A stretch of 35,027 bases of DNA from Atopobium deltae (GTDB lineage: Bacteria; Actinomycetota; Coriobacteriia; Coriobacteriales; Atopobiaceae), in contig NZ_KQ959516.1 of assembly GCF_001552785.1 (NCBI RefSeq), forward strand, positions 54,726-89,752, in the 5' to 3' direction. A program made the position numbers and the translations under genes. This document shows, piece by piece, positions 1,042 through 4,724 of this stretch (its first letter is position 1; each line of letters starts with the position of its first letter). Below the pieces are notes generated by a model. It was not told the DNA's origin and ran no database searches. It saw only the letters and a list, made by a program, of their open reading frames with translations.

Positions 1042-1968
1042 TTACAGCTTTTGTACAACCAGATAAGTATTTAAATTGCCCGTCGCTCCATCAGCCGCAA
1101 ACCGCTGAACCACACGAGCGCACGGGGCAATGTGCTGCACATACGCATCGATTTCTGTCTCATCAAAATGATGGCAATAGCGCCACGTCTGCGCTTGTTC
1201 CTGCCATCCGAGTACATAGTCGTTCTTCTCTAAATCGGATGCCTTGAGCTCAAATTCAGCACAACGTAAAGCAGCGTCTAGCCCCAGACTTGATGAGCGG
1301 TACTCCCCTGAAGCCGACGCACCCAGTGCCTGCTGTGTAGAAAACACTGCCTTCTGCGCCAACTTAGGACTCTTCATGAACTGCCAAAACGAAAACATAC
1401 CATATCCAGATGGTTTTATCTGATCGATAAGAGCATCTAAAACGTATAGGCGCGTCTGCACACCTGGCACGTGGTGCATAAATCCAAAGCACACAAGCGC
1501 ATCAGACAAAGGTGCCGATAAGTCCTGCGTAAGACGACTATTTAAAGCGGAGTCGATAAGATCAAGTTCTATAAAACGCGTCAGCCGAGAAAACAGATCA
1601 GGATCGCTTTGAGCGAGTGCCTTGCAATTATCGACTGCATAATAGTCGTACGAGATGGAGCTGTGAGCATCCATAAAGCGCTCAAAACGCAAATTTCCAC
1701 AAGCCACATCCAGAAGCTTGGGTTTTTCGGAAGAGTCTTGCGAGCTGACGCTTGAAGGCTCGTCCGAAGATCCCAGATACGAAAGACAGCGCTCCCAGCC
1801 TGGCCAGGGCGCTTGCCGTGTTTGAGAAAAGCTCTGATTTTGCTGCGCATAAAATGCTGAGGTCATGCGCTCCAGCTGATGCGCGCAGGCGCTTGTCATG
1901 CTCGCCTGGCTTCTCGCCAGACCAGCCTCTTGAACTGCTGAAATATGTTTAGCATCGTGCTGATTCAC
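1042..1968 (-). CDS. Trm9/ALKBH8-type SAM-dependent tRNA wobble-uridine methyltransferase
   Basis: The 308-residue product is a class I SAM methyltransferase with the hallmarks of the eukaryotic Trm9/ALKBH8 family. Residues 47-56 read FSQTRQAPWP, matching the family signature FSxTRxxPWP. LLDVACGNLRFERF (85-98) is SAM motif I of the DxxCGN type. MHHVPGVQTR (164-173) matches the Trm9 segment VHHWSTRERR. WRYCHHFDETEI (262-273) matches the C-terminal RYYHxYxExEL segment. Trm9 esterifies 5-carboxymethyluridine at position 34 to mcm5U, downstream of Elongator. The gene is divergent from an Elp3 gene 77 bp away, which fits that role. The first codon is GTG (1968-1966). A 9-codon frame (ATG 1994, preceded by GGAG) overlaps it in a GTGA arrangement, suggesting translational coupling; ATG start sites further in are possible. 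The family assignment is firm; the bacterial substrate is inferred. Confidence 0.8.
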   Translation of the reverse strand: MNQHDAKHISAVQEAGLARSQASMTSACAHQLERMTSAFYAQQNQSFSQTRQAPWPGWERCLSYLGSSDEPSSVSSQDSSEKPKLLDVACGNLRFERFMDAHSSISYDYYAVDNCKALAQSDPDLFSRLTRFIELDLIDSALNSRLTQDLSAPLSDALVCFGFMHHVPGVQTRLYVLDALIDQIKPSGYGMFSFWQFMKSPKLAQKAVFSTQQALGASASGEYRSSSLGLDAALRCAEFELKASDLEKNDYVLGWQEQAQTWRYCHHFDETEIDAYVQHIAPCARVVQRFAADGATGNLNTYLVVQKL

Positions 1969-2033
1969 GCATATTCCATTCTCATCGTATTCATGCGCTC
2001 CACATAAATCTTACCCTTCTTTTCTCGTCATCG

Positions 2034-2046
2034 TATAATGCAAGTA
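2034..2046 (+). promoter_or_regulatory. Promoter of the Elp3 gene; mRNA probably leaderless
   Basis: A perfect TATAAT lies at 2034-2039 and the ATG is at 2046, the expected start point of transcription. No Shine-Dalgarno sequence precedes the ATG. The -35 region is weak (TTACCC 2011-2016, spacer 17). The arrangement implies a leaderless mRNA. Confidence 0.55.
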
Positions 2047-4229
2047 TGAAAAACCAAGACCCAAAAAACATGAACGACAATGCCGAGACGCGCGAGCAAG
2101 CACTACCGCAACCACGCGAACGAGCACTACCACAAGCGCATGAACGAGCGCTGGCGCGGGTGCGTGGGCGTGCACTACCGCCAGCTCAGGAGCAAACTCT
2201 ATCGCAGGGTCGAAAGCAGGCACTCATAGCAGTTATCGATACAATTTTTGATCGACTACGCAAGACGGCTGATTCGCACGCTCCTTTGTCGGCTCGTGAA
2301 CTTGAGGTCATTCTGCGCGCCCAAATGCATCAAGAGGCGCTCAAGGCTCAACAAGCGCAAATGGAAACACCAGCACCGGTGCGAAAGCGCGATCTTCTCC
2401 CCTTCTACCAGCAGCAAAAACAACAGCGCAGTGCTTTGCAGCAAGGCTGGCTATGTGGCGATGGTCTCGAGGGGCCGCGCGATAAGGGGCAGAACAACAC
2501 TGGCCTCGCAGCTGAACTCGACGCCGAAGCCACCGCCGAACTCGAGGCGCGCTTCATCCGCTCGGTGCGCATGAAACCAAGGCGCACAGCGTCGGGCGTC
2601 GCGACCATCACGGTTATTACCCGCCCGCACACCTGCTCAAGCAACTGCATTTACTGCCCCTGCGATCTGCGCATGCCCAAAAGCTACATTGCCAACGAAC
2701 CCGCCTGCCAGCGCGCCGAACAGGCATTTTTCGATCCCTACATTCAAGTGGCTTCTCGCCTTCGCGCACTGCATCAAATGGGTCATGCTGTCGATAAGAT
2801 AGAACTCATCGTACTGGGCGGCACCTGGAGCGATTACCCCGTATCGTATCAACTATGGTTTATCCGCGAACTCTTTCGAGCACTCAACGAATGGCCAACC
2901 TGCGCAGACAACGTCGATACGCGCATGGACTGGTACAGAAGCTTTGGTCTCACCAACCAGGACACAGAGCTACAGCGCTTCGTGCATGATGCGCAAGAGC
3001 AGGTAAACGAAGGCCATATTAGCTATAACCAGGCCTTTAAAAAGCTTTATGCCCACAACAAACCCCATCAGGATGCGTGGTCGCATATGAGTTGCAGTGC
3101 GGACGATCTTCTCGACGAACAACATAAAAACGAGTCGGCGGCCTGCCGCGTGGTGGGATTGGTTATCGAGACGCGACCCGACACCATCACTCCGCGCAAT
3201 CTCACGCTGTTTCGCCGCCTCGGATGTACCAAAATTCAGATCGGAATTCAAAGCACCTACCAGCACATTCTTGACGCAAACAAGCGAAACACCAGCTGCG
3301 CGCAAATCAAGCGAGCATTTTCGCTTATCCGCCTGTTCGGCTTCAAAATTCACTCGCATCTTATGCTCAATCTGGTGGACGCCACACCCGAAAGCGACCG
3401 CGCGGACTTTGTGCAGTTCGTGCACGACCCAGGGTATCTGCCCGACGAAATCAAGCTGTATCCCTGCGCTCTCGTCGCGGGCACGCAGCTCTGTGAGCTT
3501 TTTGAAGATCGGCGCTGGCGGCCTTACAGCGCCAATGTGCTCGTCGACATCCTTGTGCAAGACGTGCTGGCCGCCCCACCCTTCGTGCGAATTTCTCGCA
3601 TGATTCGTGACATTAGCTCGAGCGACATTTTGGTTGGCAACAAGCACACCAATCTGCGACAAATAGTGGAGTCGCGCCTTCGCGCTACCGAGAAGGGCGA
3701 CATGGTCGGACAGTCCGCTGCCGAGAAGGGCAATGCGCCCGAGCGGCCCGCTGACAACAAGCTCATCCGCGTGCAAGAAATTCGCTTTAGGGAAATCAAC
3801 CAACAGCAGGTCAACGCAGCTGATCTTCACCTAGAAGATGTTTGCTATCACACCGCCGTGAGCGAAGAGCACTTCTTGCAATGGGTCACAGCCAACAATC
3901 GTATTGCAGGATTTTGTAGGCTTTCGCTTCCCGATTGGGAGCGCATCGATGCAGGCGGCTGTGACGTCACAGCAGACGAGCTTGCCGTCGCGCCAGGTCA
4001 AGCGATGATCCGAGAGCTGCACGTGTATGGCCAAGCCCTAAGCCTTGGTCATGAAGGAGCCTCCGCCCAGCACAAAGGACTAGGCCAGAGGCTTCTTGCA
4101 AAGGCATCGGACATCGCTTCTCAAAAAGGATATACACGCCTGAATGTCATCAGTTCTATTGGAACGCGCGCCTACTATCGTCACCAAGGATTTGTTGATG
4201 ACGAGCTGTATCAGTACAAGCTCCTGTAG
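2046..4229 (+). CDS. elp3: Elp3-type tRNA uridine-34 carboxymethyl-forming radical SAM/GNAT enzyme
   Basis: The 727-residue product has the two Elp3 catalytic domains. The radical SAM domain has cluster cysteines C197, C201 and C204 (CSSNCIYC), then KSYIANEP, FDPY, VLGGTW, VIETRPD, IGIQS and LYP(C) motifs, in the Elp3 order. The last ~150 residues form a GNAT acetyltransferase domain ending with ELHVYG, KGLGQRLL and IGTRAYYRHQGF. Elp3 uses acetyl-CoA and radical chemistry to make cm5U at tRNA position 34; single-subunit forms act alone in archaea and some bacteria. Two oddities are seen. Residues 16-59 are a degenerate 8-residue repeat, and residues about 562-588 form a charged linker in which AEKG-like units recur. 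The cysteine spacing is Cx3Cx2C, tighter than in eukaryotic Elp3. The divergent neighbour is a Trm9-like methyltransferase, the next enzyme of the eukaryotic pathway. Confidence 0.92.
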   Translation: MKNQDPKNMNDNAETREQALPQPRERALPQAHERALARVRGRALPPAQEQTLSQGRKQALIAVIDTIFDRLRKTADSHAPLSARELEVILRAQMHQEALKAQQAQMETPAPVRKRDLLPFYQQQKQQRSALQQGWLCGDGLEGPRDKGQNNTGLAAELDAEATAELEARFIRSVRMKPRRTASGVATITVITRPHTCSSNCIYCPCDLRMPKSYIANEPACQRAEQAFFDPYIQVASRLRALHQMGHAVDKIELIVLGGTWSDYPVSYQLWFIRELFRALNEWPTCADNVDTRMDWYRSFGLTNQDTELQRFVHDAQEQVNEGHISYNQAFKKLYAHNKPHQDAWSHMSCSADDLLDEQHKNESAACRVVGLVIETRPDTITPRNLTLFRRLGCTKIQIGIQSTYQHILDANKRNTSCAQIKRAFSLIRLFGFKIHSHLMLNLVDATPESDRADFVQFVHDPGYLPDEIKLYPCALVAGTQLCELFEDRRWRPYSANVLVDILVQDVLAAPPFVRISRMIRDISSSDILVGNKHTNLRQIVESRLRATEKGDMVGQSAAEKGNAPERPADNKLIRVQEIRFREINQQQVNAADLHLEDVCYHTAVSEEHFLQWVTANNRIAGFCRLSLPDWERIDAGGCDVTADELAVAPGQAMIRELHVYGQALSLGHEGASAQHKGLGQRLLAKASDIASQKGYTRLNVISSIGTRAYYRHQGFVDDELYQYKLL
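2091..2225 (+). repeat. 24-bp in-frame tandem repeat in the Elp3 N-terminus
   Basis: Five degenerate 24-bp units (2091-2114, 2115-2138, 2139-2162, 2163-2186, 2187-2210) and a partial sixth encode an 8-residue unit of the type R-E-R-A-L-P-Q-x. Unit length is a multiple of three, so copy number can change without a frameshift. Confidence 0.85.
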
Positions 4230-4319: not shown

Positions 4320-4724
4320 CTACTCGGCGAGTTTCTCGCCAGCGGCACGAAGCTCTTCAAGCGCGTCGTCATCGGGTTCGAGGTTGGCGATAATGGTCTC
4401 GATAACGTTAACACCAGCGCTCTCGGCATTGGCCTTCCAGTTTTCCATCCACTCGCCGGTACCCCAGTCATACGAGCCGAAAAGCACGACGGGCTTATCT
4501 TCAAACGCGTCAACGCACTCGTCCCACAGCTCTTCAAAGTCGGGATCGAGCTCCTCGTCGCCCATCGCGGGGCAACCAAAGGCGAAGGCACCATAATCGG
4601 CGACCTTGTCGGATGAGAACTCCGAATAATCCAGAGCCTCGGTGTCAGCAGCCTGAGCAATTGCTTGCGCCATGGACTCGGTGTTGCCAGTTTGACTCCA
4701 ATAAACGACAGCAACGTTACTCAT
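4320..4724 (-). CDS. Flavodoxin (short-chain)
   Basis: The 134-residue protein has the FMN phosphate-binding loop S-Q-T-G-N-T-E at residues 10-16, after the first beta strand VAVVYW, and the second FMN-contact loop around GSYDWGTGEW. Length matches short-chain flavodoxins, which are cytoplasmic one-electron carriers that replace ferredoxin, often under iron limitation. The start is well supported by AGGAGGA, 5 bases ahead of ATG 4724. A DUF3793 remnant lies upstream on the same strand, and I recall DUF3793 and flavodoxin as common neighbours in clostridia. The protein is strongly acidic, as usual for the family. Confidence 0.92.
   Translation of the reverse strand: MSNVAVVYWSQTGNTESMAQAIAQAADTEALDYSEFSSDKVADYGAFAFGCPAMGDEELDPDFEELWDECVDAFEDKPVVLFGSYDWGTGEWMENWKANAESAGVNVIETIIANLEPDDDALEELRAAGEKLAE

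Follow-up and report, generated by a model that had tools for sequence, protein, structure and literature searches.

Two neighbouring genes of Atopobium deltae very probably constitute, to judge from their sequences, a self-contained bacterial pathway for wobble-uridine modification, in which an Elp3 would make 5-carboxymethyluridine (cm5U) and a Trm9-like methyltransferase would convert it to 5-methoxycarbonylmethyluridine (mcm5U), perhaps in the 2-thiolated form mcm5s2U, with no Trm112. The genes lie in a 35,027-nucleotide stretch of contig NZ_KQ959516.1 (positions 54,726 to 89,752; assembly GCF_001552785.1), referred to here as the window. In eukaryotes, Elongator/Elp3 makes cm5U at position 34 of tRNA (U34) and Trm9 methylates cm5U34 to mcm5U, a hallmark eukaryotic wobble modification. 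For the Actinomycetota at large we think it likely that a Trm112-independent two-gene pathway to mcm5U34 (or mcm5s2U34) replaces MnmE/MnmG, that within genera its two genes are retained or lost together, and that they occur as a linked pair in two distant lineages. An initial annotation of the window had placed an Elp3 gene and a methyltransferase here and had quoted four motifs of the latter (FSQTRQAPWP, DVACGN, MHHVPGVQTR and WRYCHHF); both genes and all of the motifs are present.

Elp3 and its methyltransferase neighbour

The gene at 2046-4229 encodes Elp3, a predicted cm5U34-forming enzyme. The protein scores 375.3 bits against TIGR01211 (cut-off 350) and 26 bits, again above the cut-off, against the GNAT family PF00583, and its closest Protein Data Bank (PDB) chain is the bacterial Elp3 5l7j from Dehalococcoides mccartyi (8.8e-71). 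Alignment with Dehalococcoides Elp3 reveals that the iron-sulphur cysteines CX3CX2C are kept and that the equivalents of K150, E207, K302 and Y304 of Methanocaldococcus Elp3, of which E207, K302 and Y304 belong to the radical S-adenosylmethionine (SAM) active site (PMC13315578, PMC6367351), are conserved; the GNAT part contains QHxGxG and, near the end, YY. Archaeal Elp3 makes cm5U34 in vitro (PMC5372719, PMC13315578). Three zinc cysteines, described as strict in bacterial and archaeal Elp3 and missing in eukaryotic Elp3 (PMC6367351), were sought by alignment and are absent from coriobacterial Elp3, the window protein included, as they are from the eukaryotic enzyme, so that the Elp3 family as a whole does not require them. 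In coriobacterial Elp3 the radical SAM domain contains an insert of ~75 residues (residues ~283-357, window 2892-3116), and the window protein also has a long N-terminal extension; Dehalococcoides Elp3, the closest solved Elp3, lacks the insert in the alignment and is also without the extension (PMC6367351).

The methyltransferase was assigned through its family. A profile of 39 relatives of the window protein (A1), searched against 177,635 PDB sequences, has as its best match the fungal (Yarrowia) Trm9 5cm2 at 1.2e-8, with the next match at 7e-4. The Trm9 resemblance is significant only with the family profile, so the motif reading is right although single-sequence searches miss Trm9. The initial annotation had matched all four motifs to Trm9; this holds for three of them, whereas DVACGN is motif I for SAM binding, a generic element with nothing family-specific about it. 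Four elements make up the Trm9-specific part of the sequence: FSxTR..W, two adjacent His residues, RYxH and the C-terminal Asn. All four are conserved or invariant in the family and coincide with catalytic positions of yeast Trm9. Mutation of R29, H115, R241, Y243 or N271 of yeast Trm9 to alanine causes loss of tRNA affinity and activity, with R29A strongly impaired and H115A impaired (PMC5372719). Four of these residues (R29, H115, R241 and N271) fall on columns that are invariant in 39/39 A1 sequences, and the same is true of F24, R28 and W32 of the FSxTR..W segment, of the His-His pair (142-143), and of the R and H of the RYCH motif. The yeast sequence used for this comparison matches 5cm2 at 9e-71 and has the five residues at their published numbers, which is support but not proof of every letter. 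The C-terminal part of the alignment of A1 with yeast Trm9 was made by MAFFT, the HMMER score of A1 in this part not being significant; in the second lineage described next, the RYxH region aligns significantly with Trm9, and both motifs line up when the two family profiles are compared.

This second lineage comprises six of the 32 Elp3-bearing genomes found in the phylum survey below, which belong to three other families and are 1.2-1.5 Mb in size. Its Elp3 fits the TIGR01211 model much better (~600 bits), and a profile of its methyltransferases (A2) has Trm9 as best PDB match at 1.9e-20, C-terminal half included. The A1 and A2 profiles match each other at 3.6e-25 over the whole length; the second-lineage enzymes keep the R, H, R and N of Trm9, and their Y243 position is variable (C/Y/F/V).

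A tree was built from both actinobacterial lineages, two fungal Trm9 proteins, an archaeal (Natronorubrum) enzyme, the E. coli enzymes CmoA, CmoB, CmoM, BioC, UbiE, UbiG and Tam, and three generic coriobacterial proteins, one of which (gen_L179) is perhaps not a methyltransferase; ALKBH8 was left out. In this tree, whose branches are long and whose comparison set is small, the fungal, archaeal and both actinobacterial groups form one Trm9-like clade, with support of 90/90, apart from CmoA/B/M, UbiE, UbiG, BioC and Tam. Scored with the A1 profile, the fungal Trm9 proteins reach 41-45 bits, the archaeal protein 65 and the second lineage 69-88, and no E. coli enzyme exceeds 21 bits. Profile match, residues and clade thus bear out the proposed grouping with Trm9 over one with unrelated class I enzymes.

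Co-occurrence of the pair and absence of MnmE/MnmG

The two genes are strongly associated across genomes. In the family to which A. deltae belongs, 69 of 140 genomes have both genes and 68 have neither; two have Elp3 only (one is 77% complete, and the other has its Elp3 close to the end of a contig) and one, 73% complete, has the methyltransferase only. Among 396 Actinomycetota genomes, Elp3 (<=1e-30) is present in exactly 32, each of which also has the methyltransferase (<=2e-14); the 364 without Elp3 have no full-length methyltransferase, with at most weak core-only matches. The Fisher test gives 2e-36 for the family and 7e-48 for the phylum (32/32 vs 0/364), values that overstate the linkage because related genomes share ancestry and are not independent. 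For one of the 32 genomes (G332) only the C-terminal part of the methyltransferase is readable; shortened genes were considered and rejected there, because the sequence is interrupted by a run of N. The distribution is patchy within genera, as in the genus of Lancefieldella rimae, where four genomes have both genes and a single-contig genome (G025) has neither.

Adjacency was examined at 80 named loci, nearly all from Coriobacteriia. Elp3 is nearby in 77, divergent in 76 and in an overlapping tandem in one; at each of the three others a contig edge lies within 2.1 kb on that side. Some of the divergent pairs have stop-to-stop frames that overlap at their 5' ends, and in Adlercreutzia equolifaciens elp3 comes first and the methyltransferase follows in tandem with a 4-base overlap, making an operon. 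Helix-turn-helix and adhesin-like genes (judged by eye) stand between the two in Collinsella and look unrelated to the pair. In the second lineage the methyltransferase adjoins Elp3, divergently, in 4/6 genomes, and the genes are on different contigs in the other two. That the arrangement has changed and the pair has nevertheless stayed together argues for a functional link; the co-occurrence expected by the initial annotation is found among relatives, and with it adjacency. Two further observations concern single genomes: Senegalimassilia anaerobia has a cysteine desulfurase-like gene (by eye; locus L084, 6671-7864) between elp3 and the methyltransferase, a possible sulphur supply for U34 2-thiolation, and genome G425 has a second Trm9-like copy (L160, 6271-7095, contig 4) on a different contig from the Elp3-linked one.

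The usual bacterial route to C5 modification of U34 is that of MnmE/MnmG (with MnmC), which leads by different chemistry to 5-carboxymethylaminomethyluridine or 5-methylaminomethyluridine (cmnm5U/mnm5U34). MnmE exceeds the cut-off in 0/140 genomes of the family, and MnmG does so in 0/34 genomes. MnmA, the 2-thiolation enzyme, is encoded on the same contig as the window pair (308 bits). About half of the 140 family genomes are without Elp3 and also without MnmE above the cut-off, so these members seem able to do without U34 C5 modification by the two known routes, and may have no known pathway for it.

A candidate route to mcm5U34 and its alternatives

From established chemistry we infer the substrate, the product, the order of the steps and the thiolation. 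Elp3 would use acetyl-CoA and radical SAM chemistry to attach a carboxymethyl group to the C5 position of U34, in a subset of tRNAs, giving cm5U; the Trm9-like enzyme, acting without a Trm112 activator, would then transfer a methyl group from SAM onto the cm5U carboxylate, giving the methyl ester mcm5U, and thiolation by MnmA may yield mcm5s2U on some tRNAs. This pathway would share with eukaryotic Elongator and Trm9-Trm112/ALKBH8 the same two enzyme types, the catalytic residues and the expected order of steps. It differs from the eukaryotic one in having adjacent genes, no free-standing Trm112 that could be found, Cys in place of Trm9 Y243, and the Elp3 insert and N-terminal extension; the other Elongator subunits, for which no search was made, are not expected with the bacterial pair. 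Archaeal Elp3 (Haloferax, Sulfolobus) is without other Elongator subunits, and elp3 and trm9 are reported to be clustered in Sulfolobus solfataricus (PMC5372719). An archaeal Trm9-like enzyme falls in the same clade as the bacterial one, and the archaeal reaction is credited to a Trm9-Trm112 complex (PMC7694415).

Besides the shared ancestry that inflates the Fisher values, several points weigh against this pathway. The methyltransferase alone (METHYLTRANSFERASE) has no family match in Pfam or NCBIfam and no significant match in a single-sequence PDB search, its identity to Trm9 being so low as to be invisible to such searches; most of its relatives match generic methyltransferase models. One of the five functional residues, Y243, is replaced in the coriobacterial sequences, by Cys in 38/39 and Ala in 1/39; functional in yeast, this residue is not known to be needed throughout the family. 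A noisy reverse search with yeast Trm9 had a match in about 28 genomes bearing Elp3 or the methyltransferase; the Elp3 neighbour was best in about 17, and in 10-11 a different methyltransferase scored higher, though its match was confined to the generic core. Trm112 is needed by yeast Trm9 and human ALKBH8, and the genome containing the window yielded no free-standing Trm112, only a 16-bit fragment inside an 833-residue frame; matches in other genomes are mostly similar fragments inside long frames, plus one 79-residue frame in genome G210. It is therefore probable that the methyltransferase, in contrast to Trm9 and ALKBH8, acts by itself, although the genome may encode a very divergent Trm112-like activator. 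In the genome check proposed by the initial annotation, mnmE and mnmG proved to be missing, in favour of its reading; no Trm112-like activator was found, a point on which the system departs from the eukaryotic one. Finally, fold comparison of an AlphaFold model (mean predicted local distance difference test score 89.9) is compatible with Trm9 but not discriminating, and does not single Trm9 out: Foldseek places 5cm2 at rank 2 with the highest target-normalised TM-score among the matches listed (0.73), and VIA-align places METTL6 first (Z 19.0), with other class I enzymes including NRMT near the top and Trm9 not among the best 50. The top rows of VIA-align do not separate families, so the place of Trm9 outside the best 50 speaks neither for nor against.

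The Cys at the Y243 position and the lack of a detectable Trm112 imply that the active site differs from that of Trm9, and several derivatives of cm5U are made in archaea and eukaryotes, such as 5-carbamoylmethyluridine (ncm5U) and the methyl ester of 5-(carboxyhydroxymethyl)uridine (mchm5U) (PMC7694415). The methyltransferase might then act on the Elp3 product without forming the simple methyl ester, or modify some further product; either way the nucleoside finally formed would be new. We consider this unlikely, since the other four Trm9 substrate-binding residues are invariant and ester methylation of cm5U is the established reaction of the Trm9 family.

It is quite improbable that the enzyme is a different tRNA methyltransferase, linked to Elp3 merely in that both act on tRNA. 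A CmoM-like enzyme would perform the same chemistry on uridine 5-oxyacetic acid (cmo5U); in the CmoA/CmoB/CmoM route, which leads to mcmo5U34, CmoM also forms a methyl ester on the U34 side chain. That side chain is a different one, however, and the family profile gives CmoM 15 bits where Trm9 obtains 41-45; in the tree, CmoM is not part of the Trm9 clade. A METTL6-like enzyme, which would make 3-methylcytidine at position 32 (m3C32), is suggested by the head of the structural Z list, but METTL6 is not among the PDB matches of the A1 profile, and the strict dependence on Elp3 (32/32 vs 0/364) fits a shared product better than either role. An unrelated generic methyltransferase that neighbours Elp3 by chance, as the missing Pfam or NCBIfam family and a fold common to many class I enzymes might suggest, is very hard to reconcile with the clade with Trm9 and with a pairing that recurs, in both co-occurrence and adjacency, across this order and again in a distant second lineage. 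The three tests of its own that could be run all support the interpretation of the initial annotation, a two-enzyme route to mcm5U or a related ester.

The locus and its significance

The features of the pair are collected in Table 1. An in-frame GTG at 1968 would give a 308-residue version of the methyltransferase; among the 39 relatives, conservation of the protein sets in at the residue that corresponds to ATG 1899. The gene therefore probably spans 1042-1899, which leaves an intergenic spacer of 146 bp. The divergent arrangement described in the initial annotation is correct; its spacing of 77 bp assumes the GTG start.

Table 1. Coordinates, within the window, of the gene pair and of the residues discussed
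Feature	Position	Strand	Remarks
Trm9-like class I SAM methyltransferase	1042..1899	-	285 aa; start from alignment of 39 relatives
Spacer between divergent start codons	1900..2045	none	146 bp
Elp3, radical SAM + GNAT acetyltransferase	2046..4229	+	727 aa; TIGR01211, closest PDB chain
FSxTR..W segment, methyltransferase residues 24-32	1804..1830	-	R28 codon 1816-1818 = yeast Trm9 R29
His-His pair, methyltransferase residues 142-143	1471..1476	-	= yeast Trm9 H115-H116
RYCH motif, methyltransferase residues 240-243	1171..1182	-	R240 = yeast R241; C242 = yeast Y243
Asn 277, methyltransferase	1069..1071	-	= yeast Trm9 N271
CX3CX2C iron-sulphur cysteines C197, C201, C204, Elp3	2634..2657	+	alignment with Dehalococcoides Elp3
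GNAT (acetyl-CoA) domain, Elp3 residues 605-716, with QHKGLG and YYRHQGF	3858..4193	+	PF00583, alignment

The assembly is of 1.45 Mb in 35 contigs. Two genomes assigned to the same genus carry methyltransferases identical to those of Atopobium fossor and Atopobium minutum, which agrees with the origin of the window in this group. A flavodoxin-like gene of 134 residues (4320-4724, minus strand) ends adjoining Elp3. Its product could donate electrons to Elp3, but conservation gives no general link: flavodoxin stands beside Elp3 in only two Atopobium species among the 80 loci, and it is therefore not counted as part of the system. At the window edge, cell-wall-binding-type repeats (WYYL..TG.M..GWQ) occur at 31-408 on the plus strand.

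A 2017 review found no genes in bacteria that resemble those for Trm112-dependent methyltransferases (PMC5372719), and in a 2020 review only archaea and eukaryotes are credited with cm5U and mcm5U (PMC7694415). Our literature search, which did not extend to preprints or most subscription journals, found no description of a bacterial Elp3-Trm9 pair or of Elp3 in Coriobacteriia. The gut and oral bacteria that bear the pair probably make a tRNA modification so far not assigned to bacteria. If so, common members of the human gut and oral flora, Collinsella, Atopobium, Lancefieldella and Adlercreutzia, would make mcm5U by means of two enzymes that apparently require no activator. They would offer a minimal system to work with and a way to ask why Trm9 depends on Trm112, and would raise the question of how about half of the family lives without either known U34 C5 pathway.

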